Shown here one piece after another: positions 3,677 through 36,236 of a DNA stretch of 44,900 nucleotides. Numbering within the stretch: the first letter of the stretch is position 1; the number at the start of each line of letters is the position of its first letter. Source of the DNA: an uncultured Myxococcales bacterium (lineage in GTDB: Bacteria > Myxococcota_A > Polyangia > Palsa-1104 > JAEUJZ01); the NCBI GenBank assembly GCA_937868485.1, contig CALMML010000098.1:1-44900 (forward strand), written 5' to 3'. The translations under genes were made by a program, and so were the position numbers. The notes beneath the pieces are model-generated. The model was given only the letters and a program-made list of their open reading frames with translations, was not told the DNA's origin and made no database searches.

Positions 3677-5065
3677 ATGAGCAGTCTTTCCGACCTACAC
3701 CGGACGCGGCACGGCTTGGCCTTGGCACTTCTGCCCTTTTCTTGGCTGCTCTCCTGCAGCGCTACGTCGGATCAAAGCAGTAGCTGCCGCACCGTTGCCA
3801 ACTGCTTGCTCGACAGTGCGCCCATCTGCGACGCAGCCACCCTAACCTGCCGTCCCTGCACAATGGGAGCCGACGACACCGCGTGCAAAAACGGTCGTCC
3901 CACAACGCCACGCTGCGGTCCGCAAGGAGCCTGCGTCGCTTGCGTAACCAACAGCGACTGCGCAGGCCGAGATCCGCTGAGGCCAACCTGCCGCGCCAAC
4001 GCCTGCACCCCGTGCAAGGGCTCGGTGGACTGTCAGAGCAAGCTCTGTAGCGCCGATGGTAGCTGCGCCCCCGTCAACGAAGTCCTGTACGTCGATAACA
4101 AGAACGGAACCTGCACCGGCATCGATCACAAGGGCACCATCGACGATGGCTTTTGCACCTTGCGCGACGCCGTGCTGGCCGCAACCGCAGGTGGCAAGAC
4201 GCTCATCAGCGTGATTCCGTCCACCAAGGCCTACTCCGCACTCAAGATCACCGCCGCAGATGGCGTATCCAGCTTGACCATCGCAGGCGGCGGCAGCAGT
4301 CCCACCGAGACGCGCATCGAAGGCCAGAGCGGCGAAAGTGCCATCTCTGTCAGCGGTGGAGGCAGCAAGCTCGCGCTCTCGCTGCGCAACCTCGATCTGC
4401 AAGGCGGCACCGGCAAGACCAGCGGCATTGCCTGCGACACCGGCGCCGAGCTGACCCTGTCCGGCGTCCGCATTCACGACAGCGGCAGCGACGGACTGAG
4501 CGCCAGTGGCTGCACCGTCCACGCCGATGCCAGCCAGATCTACTCGAACAAGAGCACCGGCCTGTCGCTCACCAGCAGTCAGTACACGCTCACCAACCTG
4601 ATGATCTGGAGCAACACGGTGTCCGGCATCTCCTTCGGCGGTGGATCGAGCGGCACCATGCGCTATCTGACCGTCTACGGAAACGGCACCCAGACCAGCA
4701 GCGGCACACCCGGCATCGACTGCGGCGCGAGCCCTCTGCTTGTCGAATACTCCATCGTCTTTGACAACCTGGCGCGCGCCAGCAGCGGCACCATCAGCCT
4801 CGACCAGCAGCTCACCGGCTGCATGCTAAATGGCGTCGTCACCAATGACAAATCGACGGCGAGTGGCACCTACAAGACCGCCATCGAGTTCGTAAACTCC
4901 GTCGGCGATCCATCCAGCATCGATCTGCACCTCGTCCGCGACAGCGCCAAGAACCGAGACTGCTGCGTCGACAAGGTGACGCAGACCCCCGTGCAGACCG
5001 ACTTTGATGGCAGCACGCGCCCACAAGGTCCCGCCTCAGACATCGGCGCGCACGAAGTTCAGTAG
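3677..5065 (+). CDS. Cys-rich lipoprotein with C-terminal parallel beta-helix domain
   Basis: The ATG follows a GAGGAC ribosome-binding site overlapping the end of the preceding gene. A signal peptide ends in LLSC, a lipobox. Residues about 35-135 carry a cysteine-dense region of short repeats of the C-x(n)-C-x2-C type (for example TCRPC, CVACV, NACTPC), a style common in myxobacterial surface proteins. From YVDNKNGTCTG onwards the sequence has the look of a right-handed parallel beta-helix (pectate-lyase-like/CSLREX type): CTLRDAVLAA, then short rungs rich in G, S and T, ending in DIGAHE, typical of such proteins. No catalytic residues for a lyase were recognised. It is probably a surface-anchored adhesin or polysaccharide-binding protein; function unknown. 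Confidence 0.78.
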   Translation: MSSLSDLHRTRHGLALALLPFSWLLSCSATSDQSSSCRTVANCLLDSAPICDAATLTCRPCTMGADDTACKNGRPTTPRCGPQGACVACVTNSDCAGRDPLRPTCRANACTPCKGSVDCQSKLCSADGSCAPVNEVLYVDNKNGTCTGIDHKGTIDDGFCTLRDAVLAATAGGKTLISVIPSTKAYSALKITAADGVSSLTIAGGGSSPTETRIEGQSGESAISVSGGGSKLALSLRNLDLQGGTGKTSGIACDTGAELTLSGVRIHDSGSDGLSASGCTVHADASQIYSNKSTGLSLTSSQYTLTNLMIWSNTVSGISFGGGSSGTMRYLTVYGNGTQTSSGTPGIDCGASPLLVEYSIVFDNLARASSGTISLDQQLTGCMLNGVVTNDKSTASGTYKTAIEFVNSVGDPSSIDLHLVRDSAKNRDCCVDKVTQTPVQTDFDGSTRPQGPASDIGAHEVQ

Positions 5066-5080
5066 CCCTGCTGCCGATAC

Positions 5081-5116
5081 AAAAAAGCCCCCGCGTTCGA
5101 TTTGAACCGGTGGCTT
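5081..5116 (-). terminator. Rho-independent terminator of tRNA-Gly
   Basis: Read on the minus strand just after the tRNA, AAGCCACCGGTTC pairs with GAACGCGGGGGCTT around an AAATC loop. The stem is about 12 bp with one A/G mismatch and one bulged G, and is followed directly by a run of T. The hairpin starts 3 bases after the tRNA discriminator base. The plus-strand lipoprotein ends at 5065 but the T-run is only on the minus side. Confidence 0.75.
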
Positions 5117-5119
5117 GCG

Positions 5120-5191
5120 AGCGGGAGACGGGACTTGAACCCGCGACTTTCAGCTTGGGAAGCTAACACTCTACCACTGAGTTACTCCCGC
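5120..5191 (-). tRNA. tRNA-Gly(CCC)
   Basis: The minus strand folds as a full cloverleaf. The acceptor stem GCGGGAG pairs with CTCCCGC. The D arm reads ACTCAGTGGTAGAGT. The anticodon stem TTAGC/GCTGA closes loop TTCCCAA with anticodon CCC. The T arm is GCGGG-TTCAAGT-CCCGT and the discriminator base is T. No CCA is encoded. It reads GGG glycine codons. It stands alone, on the strand opposite to both flanking genes, with its own terminator. Confidence 0.95.
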
Positions 5192-5401
5192 GAGACAGTC
5201 AGAGGATCTACTGCGCCAGCCGACGCTTCGTCAACAAAAACCATTCGCGGCGCCGACTCAGCCGACTCACACTGAGTAATCGACGCATCCAGCCCCTGCG
5301 ACACCGCCGCCAGCAAGTCCCACGCCTGCGCCATCTGCTCCGTCCAGCCTACCGCCGCACGACGACCAAGCCCTCGCCATGTCGTGATACGCTAAGGAGC
5401 C

Positions 5402-6085
5402 ATGCCAGAAAGCCGCAGCACGCGCAAAGCGACCCGAACCAGCGGCACCATGCGGATCGAGACCATCAGCGCCAAGGACCGCGCGTGGCTCCGCACTGGT
5501 GGCTTGGTCATCGCGGTCGCGCTGGGAGGAGCAGCCGTTGGAAGCATCGGCTCACAGCTGCTCGCACGGCTGACGATGCAAAACCAGGCCCGAGGCACCA
5601 CGCACAAAGCACCGCTGCTGCTGCTGCGTGCGACCACTTCCGCAGGCCAGCTGGCAGAGATCGACAAAGCCTTGGTCGCACACGACGCCGCCACCGCGAT
5701 CATCTTGTGCGATGAAGCGCTGCGCGGCAGTCCCGGCGACCCTCAGCTGATGGCCCGCCGCAAGCGCGCCGAAGAGGCCCAGCTCGATCGATTCCGCTTG
5801 GAGATGATCGAGCAAGCCATCTCTCGCCGCAACTACGCCGCAGCCACCGCACTGGCGGAAGAGATCTCGGCAGGTTCCCCGCTGCGCACGCAAGCCACGA
5901 CCAAGATTCAGACCGTGCTGGAGCCATTCCTCGATTCGCTGCTGGCCGAAGCCGACCGCGCCGCCAAGCTTGCGCTGTGCAGCGAAGCCCGCGCGCTGCT
6001 TGTACAAGTGCTCCAGCTCAGTCCGCAGAACAGCCGCGCCCAAGCCATCCTCGCCGCCTGTCCCGTCAATCCCGGGGGCGGATAA
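5402..6085 (+). CDS. Membrane-anchored TPR-like helical protein, unknown function
   Basis: A good ribosome-binding site (AAGGAG at 5394-5399) fixes the start. The N-terminus is basic and is followed by one hydrophobic helix (LVIAVALGGAAVGSIG), which reads as a signal anchor with the rest probably outside the inner membrane. The remaining 170 residues are Ala/Glu/Arg-rich helices with TPR-like spacing: AEIDKALVAHDAATAIILCD, ALRGSPGDPQLMARRKRAEE and ARALLVQVLQLSPQNSRAQA. TPR-like folds bind partner proteins. I do not recognise a specific family. It may stand alone; glutamate dehydrogenase follows after a 285-bp gap in which I see no gene and no convincing promoter. Confidence 0.65.
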   Translation: MPESRSTRKATRTSGTMRIETISAKDRAWLRTGGLVIAVALGGAAVGSIGSQLLARLTMQNQARGTTHKAPLLLLRATTSAGQLAEIDKALVAHDAATAIILCDEALRGSPGDPQLMARRKRAEEAQLDRFRLEMIEQAISRRNYAAATALAEEISAGSPLRTQATTKIQTVLEPFLDSLLAEADRAAKLALCSEARALLVQVLQLSPQNSRAQAILAACPVNPGGG

Positions 6086-10329: not shown

Positions 10330-12270
10330 CTACGAGCCGGGGATGTAGTAGATCGGCGACGCCCAGGCCCGCTCTTGGATCGTCCTTGGCACATCTGGAT
10401 CGCTACAGGGAGCCGGTCGCGACCCCACTGGCAGCGCGTTACACAGGTAGCTGTTCCAGCGGCAGCTTGGGTTTTCCAGCACCCGCACGTAGTAAAACGC
10501 CGGCTGGCTCGGGTCAAACGAAGGGTCCGTCCACGTCCCGCACAGGCTGTCGGCCCCTTCCCCACTGCGCACACACGTAGCGACATCCACCGACGCACCG
10601 TTTTTCCGGTCCCCGGCCACGTCAAACACCATCGTCTGCGCCACCCCGCCCACCAGCGTGCCCTTTACGATCTGCACCACTTGCAGCGGCGTGCCTCGCT
10701 GCGCCCCCTCGCCCGGATCGCGAAACGCCTGCACCACAAAGCGCGGCGCTTTGCCGCTGGGCACAGACAGCGTCCCACCCATGGGAACCCCAAGCTGATA
10801 GGCCTTTTCCACCAGGCTTGGGTCGCTGCACAGACCGCTCGGCAGGTCAGCGCCGCCAAAGAAGCGCACCGTGATGCGCGGCCCGCTCGTCCCGAACGTC
10901 TCTCGCCGCTTCATCGCGTCAAACAGCGCCGGTCGCGAGTTCTCCTCCGCCCATACGCCCACAAGTCCACCGGGCGAAAACTCCATCCCGCCAATCGTGA
11001 TCCCACCTGGACCCAGCTGCTTGTCCGGCGTGTCATCGTCGAGACCGCGATGGCCGACAAAGCGCGACTCGTCCACATAGCCAGGGCTGCCGTTGTGGGT
11101 GTCGGTGCTGGCAATCAGACCAAGCTGTAGCGGGTTTACCCCCAGGCGCTGCTGCTCTTTGAGCCCCTCGGCCAGTGCATTGCGCACAAAGTCCCGCCGC
11201 GACACGCAGCCCGTTCGCGCCACGCCAGAGCTGCCCGTCCCTTCGCCGCAGTCTGGCACCGTCTTGCGCAGCGTCTTTTCAAACCCGCACTGCTCATCCG
11301 GTGCCCCCAGCACACCCGACAGACCATTGCGGCACTCCGAATCCCCCTTGTGCTGATAGATCTCGAACAGCGGCTCCATGCTCCGCCGCAGCTCCGCCAG
11401 CTTGCGCTGCTCATCGAGGCTCGCTCCCTCGGGATACTCGATGCGGAACATCTTGCCGTTGCTCTCGTTCGAGTTGTGCGGAATCGCCAGCACATCACAG
11501 CCCGTCCGCGCATGCCGACACGCCGCATCCAGCGCCTGCCACAGCCCCTGCGGCGTTGGCTCTTCGTAGTTTGTCACCGGCAGCGGAACCCGGTCGTTGC
11601 GGAAGATCACGTTGCGATGCATCGTCGACAGAGCCGGTGCGCTGGAATACTCGTAGGCGACGAAGCTGGTGAAGCGACAGCTTGCGCTCTTGTCGTAGGC
11701 ACTTCGCGCCGCCGCCTGAAGCCGACTCCAGGTTGCCGACATCAGCTCCGCACAGCCGCTGCCATCGGGTGGACAGATGTCCTCGAACCGCTGCCGATTG
11801 TCGAGCGCGAGCTGAAAGCCCAGGTTGGTGATCGCGCTGTTGCCGCCCTGGCGATAGCGCTGACAGGTCAGCGAGCCGTAGCCCTGCGCACTCGGTGTGA
11901 TGCACGCCTGCACTTCCCCCAAAAACTCGGAGTGATCCGTCACCGCCGCAAAGTCGAGCGGCCTACCCAGCCGAATCTTGCGCGTCCCCTGCCCCATCGC
12001 ATCGAGCGGCGGCAGCCCGATCTCTTCCCCTTGCGCGAAGCGATAGGCCTGCTCAGGCGTCACCCGTACGTCGAACGCATAGGCATCAAACGACAGGCTG
12101 GTATGAACATGCAGATCCCCAAAGTACGCCTGCCGCAGCGGGCTGTGCGCGGCGCACGGATCGCGCGGCTCGACATACACCACGTCCGGCTCCGCAAGCG
12201 GCTCCGCACAGGACGCCGCAAGCAGGCCCACCGGCAAAAGAAGCAGTCGCAACGAGCAGTGTCTCGACAT
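10330..12270 (-). CDS. DUF3604 lipoprotein (PHP-like putative metallohydrolase)
   Basis: The signal peptide ends LLAASC, a lipobox. The metal-site pattern of PHP-like hydrolases follows: FGDLHVHTSLSFDA near residue 50, FAAVTDHSEFLGEV near 107, IPHNSNE in the middle, and TDTHNGSPGY later. These are the hallmarks of the DUF3604 family, about 600-700 residues and of unknown substrate. Many Cys pairs in the region suggest an oxidising extracytoplasmic location. It is the third gene of a tight operon with a HupE/UreJ-type membrane protein 3 bp upstream and a parvulin isomerase before that. I recall this trio co-occurring in other Proteobacteria, but its role is unknown to me. Confidence 0.85.
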   Translation of the reverse strand: MSRHCSLRLLLLPVGLLAASCAEPLAEPDVVYVEPRDPCAAHSPLRQAYFGDLHVHTSLSFDAYAFDVRVTPEQAYRFAQGEEIGLPPLDAMGQGTRKIRLGRPLDFAAVTDHSEFLGEVQACITPSAQGYGSLTCQRYRQGGNSAITNLGFQLALDNRQRFEDICPPDGSGCAELMSATWSRLQAAARSAYDKSASCRFTSFVAYEYSSAPALSTMHRNVIFRNDRVPLPVTNYEEPTPQGLWQALDAACRHARTGCDVLAIPHNSNESNGKMFRIEYPEGASLDEQRKLAELRRSMEPLFEIYQHKGDSECRNGLSGVLGAPDEQCGFEKTLRKTVPDCGEGTGSSGVARTGCVSRRDFVRNALAEGLKEQQRLGVNPLQLGLIASTDTHNGSPGYVDESRFVGHRGLDDDTPDKQLGPGGITIGGMEFSPGGLVGVWAEENSRPALFDAMKRRETFGTSGPRITVRFFGGADLPSGLCSDPSLVEKAYQLGVPMGGTLSVPSGKAPRFVVQAFRDPGEGAQRGTPLQVVQIVKGTLVGGVAQTMVFDVAGDRKNGASVDVATCVRSGEGADSLCGTWTDPSFDPSQPAFYYVRVLENPSCRWNSYLCNALPVGSRPAPCSDPDVPRTIQERAWASPIYYIPGS

Positions 12271-12273
12271 GGC

Positions 12274-13257
12274 CTACAAGCTCCCAAACAGCAGCCCGGC
12301 TCGCTCCAGCGTCCACGCCGCCGCAGTCGATCCGAGCAGGTATCCCATCACCGGCAACAGCCTGGCCCGATGCAGCCAGCGGACCGGATACAGCAGCGCC
12401 AGCACAAACCCAAGCTGACCCAGCTCGACCCCCAGGTTGAACGACAGAAGCGACAGTGGCAGCTGCCCGGCTGGCACGCCCACTTCTCGCAGCGCCGACG
12501 CAAAGCCCAGCCCGTGCAGCAGCCCAAACAGGACCGCCATCAGCGCCGGATGACGCAGCCTGCGCTGCGGCGCAGACGCAGCCTGCGCAAAGCGGACCAC
12601 CTCTCGCGCCAGGCACACCACACTCAGCGCAATCAGCGACTCCACCAGCTGAGACGGCGGTGTCACCCAGCCGATCGTCGCCAGCACCAGCGTCACACTG
12701 TGCCCCACCGTAAAGGCTGACACCGTCCACAAAAGACCCTGGGTCGTTCGCGCCAGCAGCAGCAGCCCCGCCAGCAGCAGCAAGTGGTCGATCCCCGCCA
12801 AGATGTGCGAGATCCCCAGCCGGACAAAGCGCGTCAGCGTCTCGCGCGCGGTGCGTTGCGTGGCCACAGCAGGCACGGGAATGTGCAGCGGGTCTTTGTG
12901 GAGAAGCGCACTCAGCGGCTCTCCGTTCAGGAACTGAATCGACACCATCGCTTCGCCATGAGACACGTCCCACAGCGCGAGCGGCTGACCACGCAGCCCC
13001 AGCGAACCACAGTCGAGCACGCCCGACACCCGCTCTGCCTGCGGGCTTGGCTCAAGCTGAAGCTGACAGTGCCCTGGATAACGCAGCCGCGCCGACTCCG
13101 CGAGCGGCACTCCGGGCGGCGGAACCAGATCGAGTACAAACCGTCCAGGCACAACCTCATGCAGGGAAATCACCGTCGGCACAAAGGTATGAGCCCGCGC
13201 CACGCCCGCAGCGCACAGCCACAGCCCGAGCAGCCACAGAAGTCCGCGCGCAGTCAT
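12274..13257 (-). CDS. HupE/UreJ-family membrane protein
   Basis: A signal peptide (LLWLLGLWLCAAGVARAH) begins a mature protein with an N-terminal His. An extracytoplasmic domain of about 125 residues follows, then six or so membrane helices. The membrane part carries the HupE/UreJ signatures GISHILAGIDHLLLLAG and FTVGHSVTLVLA, whose histidines and aspartate are thought to carry Ni2+ or Co2+ in that family. The ATG overlaps the stop of the upstream isomerase gene (ATGA), so they are translationally coupled. No hydrogenase or urease gene is nearby. Metal transport is inferred from the family, and the substrate is open. Confidence 0.85.
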   Translation of the reverse strand: MTARGLLWLLGLWLCAAGVARAHTFVPTVISLHEVVPGRFVLDLVPPPGVPLAESARLRYPGHCQLQLEPSPQAERVSGVLDCGSLGLRGQPLALWDVSHGEAMVSIQFLNGEPLSALLHKDPLHIPVPAVATQRTARETLTRFVRLGISHILAGIDHLLLLAGLLLLARTTQGLLWTVSAFTVGHSVTLVLATIGWVTPPSQLVESLIALSVVCLAREVVRFAQAASAPQRRLRHPALMAVLFGLLHGLGFASALREVGVPAGQLPLSLLSFNLGVELGQLGFVLALLYPVRWLHRARLLPVMGYLLGSTAAAWTLERAGLLFGSL

Positions 13258-14138
13258 CGCTCGGCTCGCTCGATGACGACCTGATAGCGCCGTCGCAGCG
13301 CGTCCAGGGCTTGCCGACGCCGCTGCACCTGCTGCGACTCCTCCACGTCCAGTCGGAGCCGCTCGCTAAGCTGTGCAAGCGGCGGAAGCTGCCCTGGCTG
13401 CCGCGCCGTGACCCAGATCAAATGCAGCCCATGCGCGGACGGAAGGGGCATCGACCACTGCCCCTCTGCCAGCCGAAACGCGGCCTCGGCCAGCTCCGCC
13501 GAAAACAGCTGCACAAGCTCGCTCTGGCTGTGTAGCGCCAGGTCCATCCCCAGCGGATGCGGGTCGCCCAGCGTCCGCGCCGCCACCTCAGGCTCACTCG
13601 ACCGGGCCACCAGCAAGCCCCGCAGCGACTCCGCCACCGCTTGCAAATCGCGCGGATGCCGATCTCGGCTGACAAAGACCTGTCGCAGCGCCACCCGAGC
13701 CGGCAGCCGATAGCGCGCCTCATGCTGGGCCAGCCACTCACGCAGCACTGCATCACTTGGCACCGGCCTCGGCTGGAGCGCTTCGGCCAGGTACTCCATC
13801 TTCTGGATGAGCCGCCGCCGCACGATGATGTCGCCTTCCCCCAGCCGCCGCCGCACCGCCTCGCGAAACAGCACCTCGCCATCGACGTCATCCTGCAGCG
13901 CGGCCTGCAACAGCGAATCGCTGGGTGGACGGCCATCACGCCGGGTCAGTGCCGCCTGACGCGCAGCCACCAGATCCTTGGGAATCACGATCCGCTCGAC
14001 CGGCGAAGGCCGCCACAGCCCCCACGCGCCGCACAAGAGGCTCCCGAGCAGTGCAAAGTGGACCAGCGGCTCGCCAAGCACCTGCCGAAGCAGCGTGACG
14101 TACGGAAAACGGGACGGTGCAGCGGCTCGCCGACTCAT
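13254..14138 (-). CDS. Membrane-anchored parvulin-type peptidyl-prolyl isomerase
   Basis: After a basic start there is one hydrophobic segment (LVHFALLGSLLCGAWGLW), then an extracytoplasmic part. That part has a SurA/PpiD-like helical region (EVLFREAVRRRLGEGD) and a parvulin-like domain: ARVALRQVFVSRD, then EAAFRLAEGQWSMPLPSAHG and LHLIWVT. Such proteins isomerise prolyl bonds and help fold exported proteins. The C-terminus is helical. ATG 14138 puts the anchor in the usual place; a TTG frame 15 codons upstream adds nothing recognisable. Its overlap with the HupE-like gene suggests it may fold the DUF3604 lipoprotein or the loops of the membrane protein. Confidence 0.82.
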   Translation of the reverse strand: MSRRAAAPSRFPYVTLLRQVLGEPLVHFALLGSLLCGAWGLWRPSPVERIVIPKDLVAARQAALTRRDGRPPSDSLLQAALQDDVDGEVLFREAVRRRLGEGDIIVRRRLIQKMEYLAEALQPRPVPSDAVLREWLAQHEARYRLPARVALRQVFVSRDRHPRDLQAVAESLRGLLVARSSEPEVAARTLGDPHPLGMDLALHSQSELVQLFSAELAEAAFRLAEGQWSMPLPSAHGLHLIWVTARQPGQLPPLAQLSERLRLDVEESQQVQRRRQALDALRRRYQVVIERAER

Positions 14139-14250
14139 GGCTGCGCATCGTTTGCCAAACCGCACACCCGGTGCAAGTCCCAATCCCCCGCTTGGCCCCG
14201 GTCAGCCCGCGTGGTTGCCGAGGCCGCGCAAAGCATGTTACGAGCCAGGC

Positions 14251-15000
14251 ATGCGCCTTCGCTGGTCACTCGCTCTGCTGCTGCTGCTCTGGGTGCCCAC
14301 CGTGTCCGCGCATCCGCAGTTTGCGCTCTCGACCATCAACCGCTACGGACGACTGGTGCTGATGCCGGGCAAGCTGCTGCTCGACTACTCGCTGATGGTG
14401 GGCGAAGTTCCGGCTTCGCAGCTGCTCACGCGGGCAGACACAAGCGGCGATGGCCAGCTCTCGCAGCCCGAGCTTGACGCGCTCTACGCCGAGCTGCGCC
14501 GCGCAGTGGAAAAGGACCTGACCATCCAGATCGATGGTCAGCCGCTGACGCTGCACCTTCGCCAGACCCAGCAGCCACCGAGCCGTCCGGTCGCCCCCGC
14601 CACCTCTTTCGCCGTCGAGCTGTCCGCCGAGGCCACCTGGCCAGACCCAGGGGAAGCGCACCAGCTTCGCTATGAAGATCGCGCCGACCTACCGCCCGTT
14701 GGAGAGGTCGAGCTACGCATCGAAGACAGCCCAGAGACGATGCTACTGGAAACCCGCAGCGGCAACCCGACGACCGCGCCCGATCCCAAGCAGGCCCCTA
14801 CCGACAACGTCCCGACCTTGTTTCGTCAGTTTGGCCCGCCGCGCTCGCTTGTGTCTGACCGCTCGGTCACGGTGCGCTTTGCCCAAAGACCATCGCCCAC
14901 GCCGCAGCCCACCCTGCCCTGGCGCGCCCTGCTGGCACTTGCCACCCTGGCCCTGCTGGTCGCCATCCCGCTTGTTACCCGTCGCTTGCTGCGCAACTAA
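14251..15000 (+). CDS. Secreted/anchored EF-hand protein resembling the N-domain of NicO-type transporters
   Basis: The signal peptide (SLALLLLLWVPTVSA) is followed by a mature start HPQFALSTINRYGRLVL. This resembles the HPLGNFTVN-type start of the periplasmic domain found ahead of NicO/RcnA-like nickel-cobalt transporters; that comparison is from memory. Residues 62-73 are a canonical EF-hand loop, DTSGDGQLSQPE. A beta-rich region follows and a C-terminal helix (LLALATLALLVAIPLV) with a basic tail anchors it. It diverges from the isomerase-HupE-DUF3604 operon with a 112-bp gap, so a joint role in metal handling is plausible. No transporter domain is attached here. Function is inferred. Confidence 0.72.
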   Translation: MRLRWSLALLLLLWVPTVSAHPQFALSTINRYGRLVLMPGKLLLDYSLMVGEVPASQLLTRADTSGDGQLSQPELDALYAELRRAVEKDLTIQIDGQPLTLHLRQTQQPPSRPVAPATSFAVELSAEATWPDPGEAHQLRYEDRADLPPVGEVELRIEDSPETMLLETRSGNPTTAPDPKQAPTDNVPTLFRQFGPPRSLVSDRSVTVRFAQRPSPTPQPTLPWRALLALATLALLVAIPLVTRRLLRN

Positions 15001-24129: not shown

Positions 24130-26454
24130 ATGAAGAGCGCGTCTTGGTTCAGTCTCCGTCGCCGTTCGTTTCTGGCCGCGATGCTGGGAGGAGCCGCCAC
24201 CGCAGCGCTACCGTCCTGTAGCAAGTCCGAAAATCCCCCACCGGGCGTGTTCATTCCCAACGTCTACGCCGAAGAGGATGTCTTTGGGTACATGACCCGG
24301 ACGGTGGGCCGCTTCGATGAAGCGCTCTATCGGCAGCTGATCGGTGCCGCCAACGACTACAAAGAAGGCGACCAAGCGATTGGCGTAGCGGCAGCGGATG
24401 AAGGCTCGCGACGCAATGCGCGCCACCTGCTTGCCAACACCAAGGTCATGGACCTGACCGCCCGCCCGCTGCTGGCCGATCAGCAAGGCACGCTGATCAG
24501 CCAGACCACGGACCCTGCGGCACGACGGATCAGCGCGGGCTGGACGCTCGGCTTTCTGAAGTCCTACCTGCTCGGGGCCAGCGAAGACTACATCCGACAG
24601 ATCATGGTCGGCCTGCACAGCGATGTCATTGGCTGCTTGGTCAAGCTGATGACCAACGCAGAGCTTGTCGCGCTGTCGCAGAAGATCTGGAACCCGCTGC
24701 CCGGCAGCAAGGTCGGCAGTCGCGGCTACATGGGCGCACGGATTCAGCCGAACTCACCCACCGACAACGTAGACGACATCAAGTGGCAGGTGTTTGACGG
24801 CTTCTCGTATGCAGTCGGCGACGTGGTGCTGGGCTGTAACCCGGTGTCCTCAGAGGTCGAGTCGGTCGGCAGCATCGAGCGGATGCTCTATGACCTGCTG
24901 GAGACCTTCGGGCTGCTTGAGGTGCTGCCGCACTGCGTCCTTGCGCACATCGACGTGCAAGCCGAGGTCGAGAGCAAGTATCCCGACCGCACCGGCATCT
25001 GGTTCCAGAGCATCGCGGGGACGGACGGAGCCAATGGCACCTTCGATGTGTCGGTCGAAAAGATGCTGAAGTACGCCGACCAGCGCACCGGCAGATACGG
25101 CCTGTATTTTGAAACCGGCCAGGGCGCGGACTTCACCAACGGTCAGGACTTCGGCGTCGACATGGTGGTCCTGGAGTCGCGCAAGTACGGCTTTGCCCGT
25201 GCGCTGTCTCAGCGTGTCGCCGATGCGCAGCGCAAAGCCGGAAAGCCAGTGGCTCCGTGGGTTCACGTAAACGATGTCGCGGGCTTTATCGGCCCGGAGG
25301 TCTTCCGCTTCCGCGATCAGCTTGTCCGCTGCTGCCTGGAAGACATCGTCATGGGCAAGCTGCACGGGCTGACGATTGGTCTGGATGTCTGCTCGACGCT
25401 GCACATGGACGTGTCGCTCGACGACCTGGACTACTGCCTGGACCAGATCATGCCCGCCAATCCGGCGTATCTGATGGGGCTGCCGACCAAGAATGACCCG
25501 ATGCTGGGCTACTTGACGACGGCCTTTCAGGACCATGTCCGCATCCGCGACAAGTTTGGGCTCAAGGTCGATGACCGGATGTGGGCGTTCTTTCAGCAGC
25601 TCGGCGTGATCGACAGCACGGGCAAGCCCACCGACAAGTTTGGCGACCCTCGCTGGGTGTACTTGCAGTACCTGCGACGCAAGGGCGACAAGCGCACCGA
25701 AGCGGTGATCTACGCCGAAGCGGACCAGAAGATGAAAGAAGTGAGGGATCGCGGCGTGTGGCTGGCCCAAGGCTACGGAAAAGCGCCGTGGAACCTAGAA
25801 GCCAAGCTCGATGCCGAGATTCGCGCGCTGTACGAAGACTCTCGCAAGGCCATCTGGACGGAGTTTACCGATTCATTTGTGGCGTCGGTACCGATGGTCG
25901 AGCCGCTCCGAACCCAGTCGCTCGATCGCAAGGACTACGTCTGGCATCCGGTGAGTGGGGAGACGCTCGATGAAGGGTCAAAGAGCGCGGTGGCTGCGAT
26001 GCGAATGCGGCACGGGGAAAAGTACAACGTGCAGATTGTGATCTCAGACGGCCTGTGCTCGCCTGCGCTGTCGGACATGAACCACCTTCAGCCGTACCTG
26101 GAGTCGCTGCGCAGTGAGCTGACCAGCCAGGGCTACAAGGTGTCGCCTGACCATGCGCTGCTGCGCAGCGGGCGGGTGCGGGCTGGCTATCACCTGGGCG
26201 AGCTGCTCTATGCGGGTCGAAGCAACCCAGCGGCAACCGTGGCCATCATTCATCTCATTGGTGAGCGTCCAGGCTCGGGGCATCACGCCTTTTCGGCGTA
26301 CATCACCGCACCGGCAGTCAGCGTCTGGTCCAAGCCCGGCACGGTCGATCACAACATCACGCGGGTGATCTCGGGGATTGCCGATACGGCGTACGATCCG
26401 CGTGGTGCAGGCATCGAGACGGTGAAGATCCTCAAGAACATCGCCCCGCCATAA
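24130..26454 (+). CDS. EutB-EutC fusion ethanolamine ammonia-lyase with Tat-type export signal
   Basis: Residues about 45-515 align with EutB, the large subunit of adenosylcobalamin-dependent ethanolamine ammonia-lyase (ethanolamine to acetaldehyde plus ammonia). Residues about 570-774 align with EutC. Active-site residues known from the E. coli enzyme appear kept: R204 and Q206 (ARIQPN), N237 (GCNPV), E328 (YFETGQG) and D419 (GLDV). The EutC cobalamin loop is present as GERPGSG (711-717). The two subunits are normally separate genes. The N-terminus, SLRRRSFLAAMLGGAATAAL then PSC, is a twin-arginine signal, possibly a lipoprotein one although Pro is odd at -2. No EutA reactivase, EutT or microcompartment genes are near. 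A LysR gene lies upstream. Confidence 0.9.
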   Translation: MKSASWFSLRRRSFLAAMLGGAATAALPSCSKSENPPPGVFIPNVYAEEDVFGYMTRTVGRFDEALYRQLIGAANDYKEGDQAIGVAAADEGSRRNARHLLANTKVMDLTARPLLADQQGTLISQTTDPAARRISAGWTLGFLKSYLLGASEDYIRQIMVGLHSDVIGCLVKLMTNAELVALSQKIWNPLPGSKVGSRGYMGARIQPNSPTDNVDDIKWQVFDGFSYAVGDVVLGCNPVSSEVESVGSIERMLYDLLETFGLLEVLPHCVLAHIDVQAEVESKYPDRTGIWFQSIAGTDGANGTFDVSVEKMLKYADQRTGRYGLYFETGQGADFTNGQDFGVDMVVLESRKYGFARALSQRVADAQRKAGKPVAPWVHVNDVAGFIGPEVFRFRDQLVRCCLEDIVMGKLHGLTIGLDVCSTLHMDVSLDDLDYCLDQIMPANPAYLMGLPTKNDPMLGYLTTAFQDHVRIRDKFGLKVDDRMWAFFQQLGVIDSTGKPTDKFGDPRWVYLQYLRRKGDKRTEAVIYAEADQKMKEVRDRGVWLAQGYGKAPWNLEAKLDAEIRALYEDSRKAIWTEFTDSFVASVPMVEPLRTQSLDRKDYVWHPVSGETLDEGSKSAVAAMRMRHGEKYNVQIVISDGLCSPALSDMNHLQPYLESLRSELTSQGYKVSPDHALLRSGRVRAGYHLGELLYAGRSNPAATVAIIHLIGERPGSGHHAFSAYITAPAVSVWSKPGTVDHNITRVISGIADTAYDPRGAGIETVKILKNIAPP

Positions 26455-29949: not shown

Positions 29950-32520
29950 GTGAGTAGAACCCCAGAGCGGCAAGGGGAGGCGCCGGGCGGTGGCAGTTCC
30001 GGTGACTCATCGCCAGGCTCAACGATGTCGTTGCGCCAAGGTGGTTCCGTGCCGTCTGATAGCGGAGAACTTGGACGTCCCGGCTCGCCATCGGGAAGCG
30101 GTAAGAACCAAGCGATTTCGTCACGAGAGCAAGATCAGCGCTCCAAAGAAACGAGTGACGAAAAAGACCCACGCATCGGGCAGCGCTTCGGCAAGTACCG
30201 ACTGACTCGTCTGATTGGGCTCGGCGGAATGGCGCAGGTCTATGAGGCGGAAGACACGCTGCTCAACCGCCGCGTCGCCGTAAAGTTCCTGACGGAATCC
30301 CGTCGTCAGCAGTCCACCGCAGTCGAGCGCTTCATCAACGAAGCGCAGGTCGCTGGACGCCTCAATCACCCCAACATCATCGCGATCTACGACATCGGCT
30401 TCGAGCACGATACCTATTACATCGCGATGGAGCTGCTGAACCCTGGCTCGGCAGGCTCGTTCATCAAGCAAAAGGGGCGCATGACCTGGGTGGAAGCAGC
30501 CCAGACCATCATGCAGTGCTGCAGCGCGCTAGACGCAGCGCACAAGGCCGGGATCATCCACCGGGACATCAAGCCCGACAACATCCTGTGCTCTCCGGCA
30601 GGAACCGCCAAGCTGGCCGACTTCGGGCTGGTCAAAGAGCTACACATCGAGGACAACGCCGGGCTCACGCAGTCCGGTGTGGTGGTCGGTACGCCCCTGT
30701 TTATGAGCCCCGAGCAGTGCACCGCGCAGCCACTCGATCCGCGCAGTGACATCTACTCGCTGGGCTGTACGTTCTATGCGCTGCTCACCGGGAGCCCACC
30801 GTTTCCGACAGGAAGCGTGCCGCAGATCATGCTCCAGCACTGCAAGAGCAAGGTGCCTGATCCGCGTGTGCTGGCCCCGGATGTCCCCGATTCAATCGTG
30901 CGGGTGGTCGAGCGGGCCACCAGCAAGCGTCCCGAGGAGCGCTATCAAACGGCAGCCGAGATGCAAGTCGCGCTAACTGCTGCGCTCGATGAGGCACCTC
31001 GACCGACGTTCGAGTTTCTTGTGCTGGGCGCAGCGTCGCGACCCGGATCACGTCAGCGTGGCAACGGTGCAGCCCGGCTCCGCAGCGAAAGCGGACCGCG
31101 CAGCCCAGACTCGCAAGGCAGTCCCGGTGGCAATCGACTGACGGAAGGCGCACCGACACCGAACCAGCAGACCTCGATGCCAGATGCGCCGACGCCGAGC
31201 AACATGTCGCGTCGTGCCGCACTGCTCGGTGGTGTGGGTCTGCTGGCGGCGGCAAGTGGCATCGCCTTTTGGCGTCTGCGCGGTGGTCATCCGATTGACG
31301 GAACCAACACCAGCGCGGGCAATCAGCTGGCGAATAAAGAGCCGCTGTTCGTCGGTGTGCTGAACTCGCTTTCGGGACCGCTGTTCGATAGTGGTCGTCC
31401 GGTCATCGACGCAACACTGCTGGCCATCGAAGAGCTAAACAGCCGTGGCGGCGTGCTGGGCAGACCGATTGAAGCCATCGTCGCAGACGGAAAAAGCGAC
31501 AACGCGACCTTCGCCAAAGAGGCCGAGCGGCTGCTGGTCGAAAAGAAGGTCGTCACGATCTTCGGAGGCTGGTCTCCGTCGAACCGGCGCACGCTCAAAA
31601 AGGTCATCGAGAAGTACAAAAACCTGCTGATGTTCCCGGCCCGCGACGAGGGCATGGAGGACTCGGAGTACATCATCTACTGCGGCAGCACGCCCAATCA
31701 GGTGGTGACTCCATCGATTCGCTACTTCATTGAGCAGGGGCTGCTGCGACGGCTGTTCGTGATCGGTACGGACGGACTGTCGTCGAACATCTCGGCCCAG
31801 CTGATTCGCGATGAGCTAAAGGCATTCCCGCAGGTGAGCGTGGTCGGCGAGCACTTCGCGCTGCTCGGTGAGACAGGATTTAAGAAGGCGATCGAGAAGA
31901 TCCGCGACAGCAAGCCCGATCTGATCTTCAACTTCATGATCGGCGTGTCGAATCCGGCGTTCTTCCGAGAGCTGCGCGCAGCGGGCATCACCGCGAAACA
32001 CACACCGACGGCCTCGTTCGCCGTTGGTGAGCCGGAGCTTCAGCAGACCGCCGACCTCGACATGGTGGGCGAGTACCTGGCAGCGAGTCACTTTCACTCG
32101 CTCAAGACGCCGCAGAACGAAGAGTTCGTGAAAAACATCCGTCGCAAGTACGGAGACTATCGCGTCACCGGATCGGCGATGGAAGCGGCCTATGCGAGTG
32201 TCTACTTGTGGGCACAAGCGGTCCAAGCGGCGGGCACCGACGAGGTTGCGCGCATTCGCGAGCGGCTGGCCGGTCAGACGTTTGAAGCGCCCGGCGGCAA
32301 GATTCGCGTCGATCCGGGCAATCACCACTGCTACAAGCCGTTCTATCTGGGTCGGATCTCTGACGTGGGCACCGTCGAGCTGGTCAAGAGCATCACCGAT
32401 CCCATCCGACCCGAGCCGTTCCCCGCCACCCGCACCCGCGCCGAGTGGGAAGCGCTCGTCGAATACCTCTCGAAGAGCTGGGGCGGATCGTTTGTAAACC
32501 CTGGCAAGCCCAGTCCGTAA
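29950..32520 (+). CDS. Transmembrane Ser/Thr kinase fused to urea/amide-type substrate-binding sensor
   Basis: Domain order: a low-complexity Gly/Ser-rich leader (1-75); a Hanks-type kinase at about 83-346 with glycine loop LIGLGGMAQVYE, Lys112, catalytic HRDIKPDN (Asp206), DFG at 224-226 and GTPLFMSPEQ; a Pro/Ser linker; one membrane helix at about 422-440; and an extracytoplasmic UrtA/AmiC-like periplasmic-binding domain (465-840, starting FVGVLNSLSGPLFDSG). The last is the ABC-transporter substrate-binding fold for urea or short amides. The helix is preceded by SRRAALLGG, a twin-arginine-like relic. The protein should phosphorylate cytoplasmic targets on ligand binding outside. The GTG start is weakly supported; ATG 30025 is possible. 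Confidence 0.92.
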   Translation: MSRTPERQGEAPGGGSSGDSSPGSTMSLRQGGSVPSDSGELGRPGSPSGSGKNQAISSREQDQRSKETSDEKDPRIGQRFGKYRLTRLIGLGGMAQVYEAEDTLLNRRVAVKFLTESRRQQSTAVERFINEAQVAGRLNHPNIIAIYDIGFEHDTYYIAMELLNPGSAGSFIKQKGRMTWVEAAQTIMQCCSALDAAHKAGIIHRDIKPDNILCSPAGTAKLADFGLVKELHIEDNAGLTQSGVVVGTPLFMSPEQCTAQPLDPRSDIYSLGCTFYALLTGSPPFPTGSVPQIMLQHCKSKVPDPRVLAPDVPDSIVRVVERATSKRPEERYQTAAEMQVALTAALDEAPRPTFEFLVLGAASRPGSRQRGNGAARLRSESGPRSPDSQGSPGGNRLTEGAPTPNQQTSMPDAPTPSNMSRRAALLGGVGLLAAASGIAFWRLRGGHPIDGTNTSAGNQLANKEPLFVGVLNSLSGPLFDSGRPVIDATLLAIEELNSRGGVLGRPIEAIVADGKSDNATFAKEAERLLVEKKVVTIFGGWSPSNRRTLKKVIEKYKNLLMFPARDEGMEDSEYIIYCGSTPNQVVTPSIRYFIEQGLLRRLFVIGTDGLSSNISAQLIRDELKAFPQVSVVGEHFALLGETGFKKAIEKIRDSKPDLIFNFMIGVSNPAFFRELRAAGITAKHTPTASFAVGEPELQQTADLDMVGEYLAASHFHSLKTPQNEEFVKNIRRKYGDYRVTGSAMEAAYASVYLWAQAVQAAGTDEVARIRERLAGQTFEAPGGKIRVDPGNHHCYKPFYLGRISDVGTVELVKSITDPIRPEPFPATRTRAEWEALVEYLSKSWGGSFVNPGKPSP

Positions 32521-32555: not shown

Positions 32556-35500
32556 TCAGGGACAGAAGGTCGCGACCGTGCGGAAGTCCGGCTGATAGCG
32601 CAGCAGGTTGCACGCATCGGTGAGCGTTCCCGACAAGTTGCTGCGATAGTCGTCGGGATAGACCAAGGTCTTGCCATCCGCCGTGCTGAGCAGGAAGTAG
32701 CGTCCGTCGGGCGCCGCAAAGTTCGTATCGGACAGCTCAAACGGCAGGCTGGGCCAGCGCATCAGCGGCATCTCGGCGGCCATGTCCCACAGCAGCAGCG
32801 AGTTGTCGGTTCCCACCACCAGCAAGTGATCGCCGCTTGGGGACAGCACCGCCATCTGCACCGGGCTCGGCAGCGTCAACAGCACCTTCTGCTGGCCGGT
32901 TTCAAGGTCCCAGGTACTGACCACGCGCTCGGCGGTGGTAATGAGGCTCTGACCTTGCGGCGTCTGCAAGAACACAGCGGAGCTAACGACCTGACCGCCA
33001 CTTGGTAGCGTTCGCCGCACCGCCAGCGTGTAGCCATCGCGAATCACCGTCTCGCCTTCCGAGCCCGCCGTCACCAGCAGCTTTCCGTCGGGCGAAAACA
33101 TCGCTTGCACCAGGTTGCCGTGATGTCCGCCTTCACTTCGCAGAAGCTGACCCGTCGAAGGGTTCCACAGGCGCAGCGTCTCATCGAGCCCACCACTTAG
33201 CAGGCGCTGACCATCGGGCGAAAACGTCACGATCTGCACCGAGCCCTTGTGCCCACGCAAAGGAGGCAGCAGCAGCCGTCCCGAGCGCCCGTCCCACAGT
33301 CGCACGGTGCCATCAGAGCTTGCCGTCGCCATGCGCGTTCCATCAGCCGAAAAGACCACGCTGTTGACGACGTGATCATGACCGACCAGCGTCGCAACCG
33401 GCTCGCCACTTGGCCACTTCCACAGCTTGGCGGTGTGATCGTGGCTGGCGGTCGCAATGTGGGTTCCGTCGGGCGAAAACGCCGAAGCCGAGATGTAGCG
33501 ACTGTGACCCGGCAAGACCAGCAGCGGCTGACCGGATCGGACATCCCAAATGCGCGCCGTTCGATCATGGCTCACGGTGGCCACCTTGCCGCCTTTGGGT
33601 GCCACTGCGACGCCGTAGATCGGTCCCGAGTGGCCGCGCAGGACGGCGATCTCCATCTTGCTGCCCACGTCCCAGAGCCGAACGATGCGATCGTGACCGG
33701 CGGTGACCAAGTACTTGCCGTCGCTCGTGAAGCTGAGCGCATCGACCACGCCGACGTGACCATAGAGCGTGCCGCGTAGCTCTCCCGAGCGTCCGTCCCA
33801 CAGCTTCACCACACCATCGGCGCCCGCGCTGGCCACCAGTCCTCCGTCGGGCGAAAACTGAAGGGAGTGCAGCGGTGTTCCTTGGGACAGCTCCAGCCCT
33901 TGTTCCGGGATCGGCTGCGATGGATCCAGCGGCCACAGACGCACGGTGCCATCCCAGCTTCCCGTCGCTGCGCGCTGACCATCCGACGAAACGGCAACCA
34001 AGTTTACGCGATGGCGATGACCGTGAAAGGTCTTCAGACAGCTTCCCGACGCAACGTCCCACAGCCGCACGGTCTGGTCGAAGCTGCCCGAGACAACCTG
34101 CTTTCCCGACGGAATGAAGACCGCCATGGGAACGCGCTCCAGATGACCGCTGAGCACACGCAGCTCAAGTCCCGTCGCTGCATCCCAGATCCGAATCGAG
34201 TGATCCTGCCCCGCCGTGACGATGCGATCGCCGCTCTGGGAAAACGCGCCCATCTCGATCGGTTCAGAGTGACCACGCATCGTGGCCTTTAGCTCGCCGG
34301 TTTCGACTTCCCACAAGCGTCCGAGTCCGTCGGTGCTCGCCGAAAACACGCGCCGCCCATCGGGAGAAAACACCGCAGCCGTCAGCAGTCCTGCGTGGCC
34401 AGTCAGCGCCCGCAGCGGTCGTCCCGTTCGCGCGTTCCACAGTCGCGCCGTCTGATCCTGGCTGCCGGTCAGCACCAGCTCACCCGTCGGATCGAACGAA
34501 ACCAGCTCGACCCGATCGCTGTGCCCATGCAGCGGCAGCGAGTTCTTCGCCGTCCCATAGGTCAGCATCAGTCCTTCTTTGGCCTCGGGCGGAACGGGCC
34601 GCGCACTACGCAAAGAAGGTGCCGTCGCCGAGATCGCCAGCGCCAGCGCCGCACCGTCTTGGCCTGGCTGCTGCACCAGCAGCGCCGCACGCGCACCCTG
34701 CTCTGCTGCGATCGCATCATCATGTCGCGCGGATAGAAGCGTCTGCCGCTGTCGCTCCGCCAAGAGTCCCAGCGTCAGCACCAGCAGCGACGCCACAATC
34801 GCCCACGGAACCCAGCGACGACGAACAGGCTGCTGCGTCACCGGAACCTGCGGTCGTCGGCTCTGCGCCTGCGCACTCGCCTTGATGAGCCGCGCCACCT
34901 TTAGGTCTATCTGCGACGGACGCTCAGACAGCCAGCGCTCTGCTTCGGCGAGCTTATAACCAGCAAGCTGCGCATGAGGCTGGCTCAGCGACACACCGCC
35001 TAAGCTGCTCAGCCCCGACAGGCTGCTGCCTTCGCGCTGAAGCGAGCCAAGCAGCTCCGCATGCCACTGCTCAAAGCGTCGCTCTTCGTCGGGCCAACGT
35101 CCAAGCTCAGGCCAGACCGACAGCAGGATCGGATGCATCAGCTCGACGACATCGCTGCCTGGTGTCTCGCGAATCAGCTCCGCCGCCACCAGTCGACTGA
35201 GCGCTTCGACATCGCTCGCCGACGCAGGATCATCGCCTCGATCGGGGGAAATCAGCGTCAGCAGCTCACTTCGTCGCCGGGGACGAGAAAACAGCACCTC
35301 GCCTTCGCTCAAGGTCTGACGATGCAACAGCGACAGCAGGGCCCGACGCTGATGAAGCTGAAGCGCGGGCGGCTGACTGCGCCAGCTTGCTTCGACGGTA
35401 TCGGGCAGCGAGCGAAGAAGTCCGCCCGACGACTGATAGTCATCCAGAGACAGCACGCGCGGCGTCGGACCAAGCCGAGCCACATGAAGCGTCCGACGCA

Positions 35501-36236
35501 GCATCGAAACGAGCAGTGGCAACACCGCCGCCGAGCGCTGTCCCGACGCAACCGACACTGCGTACGCATCCAGGTCTTTCCCGAGCGCAGCCAGCATCGA
35601 CTCTTCCACCCGCAGACCTGCTTGGCGCGCCGGGCTCCTCACGATCTCGGTCCACTCGCTCACGTCGAGCAGCGGAGCAAGCCACAGCGTCTGCCGACCG
35701 AGCAGCCCGAGCAGCCCCTTGGCCACCACCGCCAGCGCCGACAGCGCATCCGAGTGAGCCACCAGCACGATCTGCAGCGGTGCACCGTCGTCGATCGCCT
35801 TCCCGAGCGCTTCCAGCTGCGCCACCAGGTTTTGCCGACTGTACGGCTCCGCAAACAGCAGCTCTTCCAGGTGATCGCAGATCAGTACGACCTTGCGCCC
35901 AGTCTTGGCCACCGACAGCAAAGACAGCACCAAGTCATCCGACGCCGATCGCAGTCCTTGGGTCGCCAGCTCCGCAAACGGATCCAGCCCCGGGTGCGAG
36001 ATACAAAACACCGCCACGCCGTCCTGAAGCTCGCGACGAAGCTGATGCCACAGACCCGCACGCACAAGCGACGACTTGCCCGTCCCACACGCGCCCAGCA
36101 CCGACACGATGCGATGCGCATCTAGGAGCTGTCGCAGCCGCTCTACTTTGCGTAAGCGACCACAGAAGCGAGCCTCATCCTCGGGCCCGAGCGGAGCCAG
36201 CGTTGGATAAGGAGATGCATCACTTAGCGGCACCAT
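32556..36236 (-). CDS. STAND-type NTPase with transmembrane helix and double WD40 propeller
   Basis: The start SPYPTLAPLGPEDEARFCGR matches the entry motif of the nSTAND1 group. Walker A GACGTGKSS (48-56) and Walker B VVLICDHLEELL (about 115-126) follow, then a helical STAND region. One membrane helix (IVASLLVLTLGLL, near 478) separates this from about 650 residues of WD40 repeats. I count 14 clear units plus a weaker fifteenth, such as LTGHAGLLTAAVFSPDGRRV ending RLWEV, enough for two seven-bladed propellers. STAND proteins are ligand-gated signalling or conflict switches. No effector domain is seen at the N-terminus. The start lies 17 bp inside dapF. It converges on the kinase gene. Confidence 0.9.
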   Translation of the reverse strand: MVPLSDASPYPTLAPLGPEDEARFCGRLRKVERLRQLLDAHRIVSVLGACGTGKSSLVRAGLWHQLRRELQDGVAVFCISHPGLDPFAELATQGLRSASDDLVLSLLSVAKTGRKVVLICDHLEELLFAEPYSRQNLVAQLEALGKAIDDGAPLQIVLVAHSDALSALAVVAKGLLGLLGRQTLWLAPLLDVSEWTEIVRSPARQAGLRVEESMLAALGKDLDAYAVSVASGQRSAAVLPLLVSMLRRTLHVARLGPTPRVLSLDDYQSSGGLLRSLPDTVEASWRSQPPALQLHQRRALLSLLHRQTLSEGEVLFSRPRRRSELLTLISPDRGDDPASASDVEALSRLVAAELIRETPGSDVVELMHPILLSVWPELGRWPDEERRFEQWHAELLGSLQREGSSLSGLSSLGGVSLSQPHAQLAGYKLAEAERWLSERPSQIDLKVARLIKASAQAQSRRPQVPVTQQPVRRRWVPWAIVASLLVLTLGLLAERQRQTLLSARHDDAIAAEQGARAALLVQQPGQDGAALALAISATAPSLRSARPVPPEAKEGLMLTYGTAKNSLPLHGHSDRVELVSFDPTGELVLTGSQDQTARLWNARTGRPLRALTGHAGLLTAAVFSPDGRRVFSASTDGLGRLWEVETGELKATMRGHSEPIEMGAFSQSGDRIVTAGQDHSIRIWDAATGLELRVLSGHLERVPMAVFIPSGKQVVSGSFDQTVRLWDVASGSCLKTFHGHRHRVNLVAVSSDGQRAATGSWDGTVRLWPLDPSQPIPEQGLELSQGTPLHSLQFSPDGGLVASAGADGVVKLWDGRSGELRGTLYGHVGVVDALSFTSDGKYLVTAGHDRIVRLWDVGSKMEIAVLRGHSGPIYGVAVAPKGGKVATVSHDRTARIWDVRSGQPLLVLPGHSRYISASAFSPDGTHIATASHDHTAKLWKWPSGEPVATLVGHDHVVNSVVFSADGTRMATASSDGTVRLWDGRSGRLLLPPLRGHKGSVQIVTFSPDGQRLLSGGLDETLRLWNPSTGQLLRSEGGHHGNLVQAMFSPDGKLLVTAGSEGETVIRDGYTLAVRRTLPSGGQVVSSAVFLQTPQGQSLITTAERVVSTWDLETGQQKVLLTLPSPVQMAVLSPSGDHLLVVGTDNSLLLWDMAAEMPLMRWPSLPFELSDTNFAAPDGRYFLLSTADGKTLVYPDDYRSNLSGTLTDACNLLRYQPDFRTVATFCP

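Follow-up and report, generated by a model that had tools for sequence, protein, structure and literature searches.

How exported enzymes come by the right metal once they are outside the cytoplasm is not settled, and a compact, testable case of it is offered by a group of genes in a stretch of 44,900 nucleotides from an uncultured Myxococcales bacterium (contig CALMML010000098.1, positions 1 to 44,900; the whole stretch is called the window here). Three genes on the minus strand encode a membrane-anchored parvulin (13254-14138; 294 amino acids from its ATG; PF13145 Rotamase_2, 52.7 bits against a cut-off of 27), a HupE_UreJ_2 protein (12274-13257; 327 amino acids; PF13795, 152.5 bits against 24.5) and a DUF3604 lipoprotein (10330-12270; 646 amino acids; PF12228, 562.7 bits against 20.4), while a fourth gene diverges from them on the plus strand (14251-15000). 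A preliminary description of this DNA had read all four as an envelope module for metal acquisition or metalloenzyme maturation, with DUF3604 as the metalloenzyme and the isomerase as its foldase. An open reading frame check and Pfam matching in the window confirmed the four genes at the coordinates given, with small corrections to their description, as well as the close packing reported for the first three, in which the parvulin stop overlaps the HupE start by 4 bases and 3 bases separate HupE from DUF3604; the divergent starts of the parvulin and the fourth gene are 112 bases apart. As set out below, that reading finds support for DUF3604, for the isomerase and for HupE, but not for the fourth gene. 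With a confidence just above even, we take the three minus-strand genes to form a module of the envelope that is dedicated to one exported metallohydrolase, with a foldase and a metal supplier of its own.

DUF3604, HupE_UreJ_2 and the anchored parvulin are a recurring module in at least two phyla (Myxococcota-type and Pseudomonadales). A set of 48 named loci was chosen by likeness to the DUF3604 of the window, the closest being L002, a Myxococcales metagenome-assembled genome whose DUF3604 is 91% identical to the window copy. Here, 30 DUF3604 genes had full flanks, with both parvulin and HupE near 9 of them, parvulin only near 5 and neither near 16; for the 18 genes with cut flanks the corresponding numbers were 3 with both, 1 with parvulin only and 14 with neither seen. 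Because loci selected for DUF3604 likeness are biased, a second survey started from HupE. In a phylum sample of 140 genomes, DUF3604 was present in 73 and HupE in 95, and at least 30 of the best 150 HupE places lay within 6 kb of one of the best 150 DUF3604 places, in 24 genomes and on the same strand in 29 of 30 cases, against 1.2 to 2.6 such proximities expected by chance. Since both samples used the best 150 matches per family, the adjacency counts are lower bounds. Around 91 HupE genes with flanks, parvulin and DUF3604 were both found for 26, parvulin only for 6, DUF3604 only for 2 and neither for 57 (Fisher p 7e-15); 80 of the regions were taken by rank from the best 150, and the other 11 genes came from 13 hand-chosen regions, eight of which had been picked as linked-looking. 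Within the 80 rank-ordered regions (L101-L180), 19 had both partners, 6 the parvulin alone, 1 DUF3604 alone and 54 neither.

The association also holds at the level of whole genomes. With thresholds that were set after the lists were seen (E<1e-30 for the parvulin and E<1e-100 for a strong DUF3604 match), the parvulin was found in 41 of the 140 genomes. Strong DUF3604 accompanies it in 38 of these 41 and occurs in 12 of the 99 genomes without such a parvulin match (p 3e-20); HupE was present in 40 of the 41 (p 2e-7). The three parvulin genomes without strong DUF3604 all belong to a single family (f24), and in three of the 12 DUF3604 genomes under the parvulin threshold (G070, G094 and G130) a parvulin that is weaker or cut does lie next to DUF3604 or HupE. 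Co-occurrence had been suggested as a check on the preliminary description, and for these three families it is found: the parvulin tracks both DUF3604 and HupE, and its presence with strong DUF3604 supports, as far as sequence matches can, the view of the isomerase as a dedicated partner.

The second sample was the order that contains Microbulbifer, which we take to be the Pseudomonadales. Among its 244 genomes, DUF3604 was found in 71 and HupE in 146, and at least 18 of the best 150 HupE matches lay within 6 kb of the best 150 DUF3604 matches. The parvulin was present in 15 of 17 fetched regions, including one (L218) with the order HupE-parvulin-DUF3604; the regions without it are L214, with a short HupE, and L216. 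A named strain of this order, Microbulbifer variabilis SaN7-12 (L015), carries the full module. No parvulin match was found within the 1.5 kb flanks of 30 further loci from this order with HupE-like matches, most of these matches being short and without an ectodomain.

The module is not tied to one arrangement. With P for parvulin, H for HupE and D for DUF3604, the module loci show the orders P-H-D, D-P-H, H-D-P and H-P-D as well as divergent forms. Both partners accompany 37 HupE genes in L002-L180 (window excluded); of these, D-P-H accounts for 19 and P-H-D for 9 together with L007, in which the parvulin ends at 7072 and is followed by HupE and then DUF3604, the apparent H-P-D order there being an artefact of an overlapping long frame; rarer are the divergent forms, H-D-P (L090) and loci with two DUF3604 genes, and a split parvulin is listed twice in L131. 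In a tree of 66 DUF3604 sequences, from which loci with cut flanks and no partner were omitted, the label for having both partners near requires 10 changes, at least 7 of them forced by well-supported branches, so that the linkage has been repeatedly gained or lost. In one contig-assembled genome (L083:5694-8780), HupE and DUF3604 are joined in a single open frame of 982 amino acids, with both Pfam domains well over cut-off. As the C-terminus of HupE is predicted to lie outside, the joined DUF3604 would be periplasmic. No parvulin of the module family was found near this frame, and a divergent gene for an FKBP-type isomerase (4911-5405) adjoins it. What recurs across two or more phyla is an operon for an enzyme, a helper of its folding and a metal protein; in one genome, enzyme and metal protein share a frame.

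At the centre of the module stands DUF3604. The function of this very large family is unknown, and the present results propose for it a fold, an active site and two partner proteins. The protein of the window has a lipobox (LLAASC), and its AlphaFold2 model (mean predicted local distance difference test score, pLDDT, 91.1; predicted template modelling score 0.91) is organized as a predicted PHP-type metallohydrolase domain, at about residues 41-460, followed by a C-terminal beta-sandwich. When this model was aligned to PDB structures with VIA-align, the top five entries were all PHP proteins, namely 3E38 (Z 16.1, root-mean-square deviation 3.5, 230 residues), 2ANU (Z 14.9), 3O0F (Z 9.9), 7UG9 (Z 8.4) and 9ETK (Z 8.2), and the next, unrelated row had a Z of 4.5. 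In an alignment of 46 DUF3604 sequences, nine residues (H54, H56, D62, H113, E207, H218, H265, D390 and H392) never vary; they span codons 54-392 (11095-12111, minus strand), and from their order, together with the spacing of the first three, we assume them to be PHP metal ligands by analogy with proteins such as YcdX. DUF3604 shares its predicted fold and the pattern of ligands HxH(5)D...H...E...H...H...DxH with the PHP phosphoesterases listed above, of which 7UG9 and 9ETK are RNase AM. Unlike them, it is exported as a lipoprotein; its roughly 600 residues include long insertions, the C-terminal beta-sandwich and conserved cysteines. Ten of these cysteines are retained in at least 42 of the 46 sequences, which fits an exported, disulfide-bonded protein. 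The CehA/McbA metallohydrolases (NF038032) are matched weakly and in the surroundings of HxH only, with 17.2 bits, far under the curated cut-off of 80 bits. The modelled fold and the invariant ligand set support the view of DUF3604 as a metalloenzyme, and we predict it to be an exported lipoprotein with a PHP-type metal-dependent hydrolase domain. The number of candidates can be large, with up to 43 in one genome and more than 40 in each of G084, G065 and G110 (genomes of 4.4 to 5.1 Mb).

HupE is composed of a signal peptide, a modelled beta-sandwich ectodomain and six predicted transmembrane helices with the C-terminus outside, a topology estimated from hydropathy, charge counting and the model (pLDDT 84.1). 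Judging from the sequence, cleavage after ARA would leave a mature chain that begins with His (H23), and the corresponding alignment column holds His in 97 of 103 sequences, Asp in 5 and a gap in 1. H151, D157, H158, H186, H248 and E278 are invariant in all 103, the first three forming HX5DH (residues 151-158; 12784-12807, minus strand), presumably the motif of HupE transporters. In VIA-align, the ectodomain model fits the copper-bound Ang-1 domain 9GCE with a Z of 7.2 (root-mean-square deviation 3.3, 102 residues), level with its matches to zinc-binding ZrgA, PA4063 and other metal-binding beta-sandwiches; being below 8, this value does not by itself decide for an Ang fold. For the membrane part, matches to halves of major facilitator proteins (best Z 8.6) were discarded because helical bundles reach such values by chance. 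Neither the HupE nor the DUF3604 profile had a relative among PDB sequences. The His-first ectodomain and HX5DH speak for an envelope metal protein, and by sequence HupE is of the anglerase type. It has in common with Ang-1 and Ang-2 (RbAng-1a, PDB 9GCE), described in 2025, a His right after the signal peptide, an ectodomain that is here predicted to be a beta-sandwich, and a C-terminal HupE_UreJ_2 part with conserved His. PMC12537917 reports nanomolar-range binding of copper and nickel by these anglerase-HupE/UreJ-2 proteins and proposes that they catch either metal and feed it to an importing permease. The gene neighbours given there (DUF4198, indigoidine A-like, PfkB, metallophosphatase and DUF916) differ from DUF3604 and the parvulin, and the words parvulin and isomerase do not occur in the main text (PMC12537917).

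The third partner has one N-terminal transmembrane helix and a SurA/PrsA-type domain, with relatives among PDB sequences. PrsA is itself a parvulin. The parvulin domain is common to NifM, SurA, PrsA and PEB4-type proteins (NifM model E 4e-7, SurA E 3e-10); the window protein stands far under the NifM cut-off of 168.2 bits and differs from all these types in its single N-terminal helix and in a Gln that replaces one parvulin His. A second, divergent parvulin is adjacent to a HupE-like protein of about 400 amino acids, with a mature start like HTRSTSYSTW, in seven regions (L230:1869-3994, L231:4974-7180, L232:5176-7295, L233:4893-7030, L234:4555-6686, L235:4437-6535 and L237:1149-3109); DUF3604 was not found adjoining this pair in L230-L235, and a fragment of it was seen in L237.

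On these grounds, the three proteins may be placed in one sequence of events. DUF3604 would be exported unfolded through Sec and lipidated, the anchored parvulin would aid its folding as it leaves the translocon, and in the periplasm it would fold as a hydrolase of the PHP type, dependent on several metal ions. HupE, with its periplasmic His-first domain and the HX5DH of its membrane part, would handle metal at the same membrane face and supply it to DUF3604. The metal loading, the client relation and the direction in which the metal moves are what we infer. Maturation is preferred because a Sec-exported multi-metal enzyme must acquire its metal outside the cytoplasm, where a co-encoded transporter and foldase would serve, and because TerC proteins act in this way in Bacillus. 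In particular, PMC10550928 describes that the TerC proteins MeeF and MeeY of Bacillus subtilis metalate exported enzymes, among them the Mn-dependent LtaS, and co-purify with PrsA. Like the module proposed here, that system combines a membrane metal transporter, a membrane-bound foldase and exported metalloenzymes (PMC10550928). A likeness of working between the two is possible by analogy; here, one locus encodes all three parts, with a predicted PHP lipoprotein as the enzyme. By Pfam profile, HupE is not a TerC protein, as it matches PF13795 only. A more specific picture is offered tentatively and would be the less probable claim: the three proteins would bind to one another at the translocon, and their complex would load metal into a Sec-exported metallohydrolase, as a Gram-negative, operon-encoded counterpart of TerC and PrsA. 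In that case, some anglerase-type HupE proteins would act as metal donors for an exported enzyme and not solely as importers. The kinds of protein involved are known, and it is their combination that makes exoenzyme metalation testable. No description of the module was found in the open-access literature (subscription papers lay outside the search), where DUF3604 appeared in one unrelated table row only and PMC12537917 was absent among the matches for DUF3604.

Several points weigh against a maturation module. Linkage is far from general: many DUF3604 genes, like the 57 of 91 HupE genes counted above, have no partner near, six parvulin-HupE pairs lie without a nearby DUF3604 and six DUF3604-parvulin pairs without a nearby HupE, and the co-occurrence statistics, in which ancestry was considered within ten families only, are not fully corrected for it. 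As for the fold, neither the whole HupE model nor the whole DUF3604 model had a PDB match at E<=0.001 in Foldseek alone, the best match of DUF3604 being to a PHP domain (E 0.018). Pfam PHP profiles do not match DUF3604 even at E<=10, so its PHP kinship is invisible at the level of sequence profiles. Two conserved histidines are catalytic in parvulins, and the window protein retains the second (His239) and has Gln153 at the first, a column that holds Gln in 23 of 58 relatives and His in 29. The protein was consequently filed as parvulin-fold and not as an active isomerase; its activity, and that of the relatives with Gln, may be weak, with chaperoning as the chief role. Finally, HupE proteins are described in PMC12537917 as metal importers, and an importer would draw metal away from a periplasmic enzyme.

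In an acquisition pathway, periplasmic DUF3604 would cleave a molecule that holds metal or serves as a nutrient, at a phosphoester or other bond, HupE would take up the metal set loose and the parvulin would fold one or both of them. The role proposed for anglerases as copper and nickel catchers that feed an importing permease (PMC12537917) would agree with this, and dozens of predicted PHP hydrolases in one genome (up to 43) would fit an enzyme set with differing substrates; however, most HupE genes have no DUF3604, and the tight co-occurrence of the parvulin with DUF3604 favours folding or maturation, so that we regard acquisition as unlikely, if worth keeping in view. The core could instead consist of the parvulin and HupE, the isomerase maturing HupE or its ectodomain and DUF3604 being just one of several cargoes that joined the two. 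Such a core would account for the six HupE loci with a parvulin and without DUF3604, for the six regions in which the second pair has no adjoining DUF3604 and for the presence of HupE in 40 of 41 parvulin genomes. Yet six loci combine the parvulin with DUF3604 and not with HupE, 59 of 91 HupE genes have no parvulin and hence HupE has no general need of it, and across genomes the parvulin follows DUF3604 more tightly than HupE (p 3e-20 and p 2e-7), all of which makes this core a doubtful proposition in our judgement. That the genes are merely co-located, through common regulation or joint travel and without acting on each other, appears improbable: unlinked copies of each family do exist and the genes flanking the three vary freely among loci, but five gene orders, the 4-base overlap of the window, the one continuous HupE-DUF3604 frame, the occurrence in two phyla and the genome co-occurrence all speak for more than shared position.

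Maturation by three proteins is also to be set against a module of four parts that includes the divergent gene, as the preliminary description had it. That gene is adjacent and divergent in L002 as in the window and lies about 2 kb from the module in the sister species L003, with genes for a cytochrome c-like and a TPR protein between it and the parvulin gene (L003:4117-6031). Its product, like HupE, is His-first and resembles a NicO ectodomain. Nevertheless, homologues occur in only 8 of the 140 genomes, 3 of them with strong DUF3604 (Fisher p = 1); among these genomes the gene stands beside the module in a single one, that of the window (G000), and it had no match in the other module loci of the 48-locus set. 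The four-family co-occurrence proposed as a check hence fails for this gene, an outcome that had been foreseen as speaking against its membership. With adjacency limited to the lineage of the window, the fourth gene was rejected as a module member, and a four-part module is hardly credible; as far as its sequence tells, the gene is a lineage-specific neighbour that encodes a separate His-first protein.

This protein (249 amino acids) has one C-terminal transmembrane helix, and no Pfam model matches it over cut-off. Its loop DTSGDGQLSQPE (residues 63-74; 14437-14472, plus strand), read by eye from the sequence, is a canonical EF-hand loop but not the perfect one first reported, having Ser at position 3 in place of the DxDxDG pattern; EF-hand_5 reaches 11.2 bits against a cut-off of 25.9, and no Pfam EF-hand model exceeds its own. 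The loops of two sister species are DxDxDG or DxDxDG-like. Across ten compared family sequences, an EF-hand-like loop is present, degenerate in some, and the sequences can be aligned from the His after the signal peptide, where the alignment was started by eye, in agreement with the His-first mature end noted earlier. A PDB sequence search gave weak EF-hand and dockerin-like matches only (best E 0.03). The label NicO-domain-like applies in part: the NicO domain itself (PF03824) is unmatched, and the likeness is to the N-terminal ectodomain that precedes, in two homologues (L096:562-1902 and L097:409-1890), a fused NicO nickel-transporter domain. These fusions tie the stand-alone His-first proteins to nickel transporters, although the fourth protein differs from the NicO nickel and cobalt transporters in its one transmembrane helix and its lack of the domain. 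When the profile of the fourth protein was compared with that of the HupE ectodomain, hhalign gave a probability of 0.1, and homology of the two is for this reason not claimed. Two further homologues of the fourth gene (L094:1236-2537 and L095:1-1404) adjoin lipoproteins that carry PF11617, a putative copper-binding motif of the MopE type.

Regarding the metals available to such proteins, the statement that hydrogenase and urease are absent holds for the window, whereas for hydrogenase it does not extend to the genome: a different contig (C96; L228:4690-6896) encodes the small and large subunits of a [NiFe] hydrogenase, with the motifs RICGICP and DPCISC, and the enzyme resembles what we take to be group 3 [NiFe] hydrogenases. 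No HupE gene adjoins them in the stretch read, and a search of the same genome did not find urease alpha. Nickel use by the organism is likely in view of this hydrogenase cluster.

Elsewhere in the window, the large and small subunits of ethanolamine ammonia-lyase (EutB and EutC) occupy one open frame of 774 amino acids (24130-26454), a single protein combines a Ser/Thr kinase domain with a periplasmic-binding-protein receptor domain (29950-32520), and an nSTAND1 NTPase of 1226 amino acids carries a long array of WD40 repeats (32556-36236).

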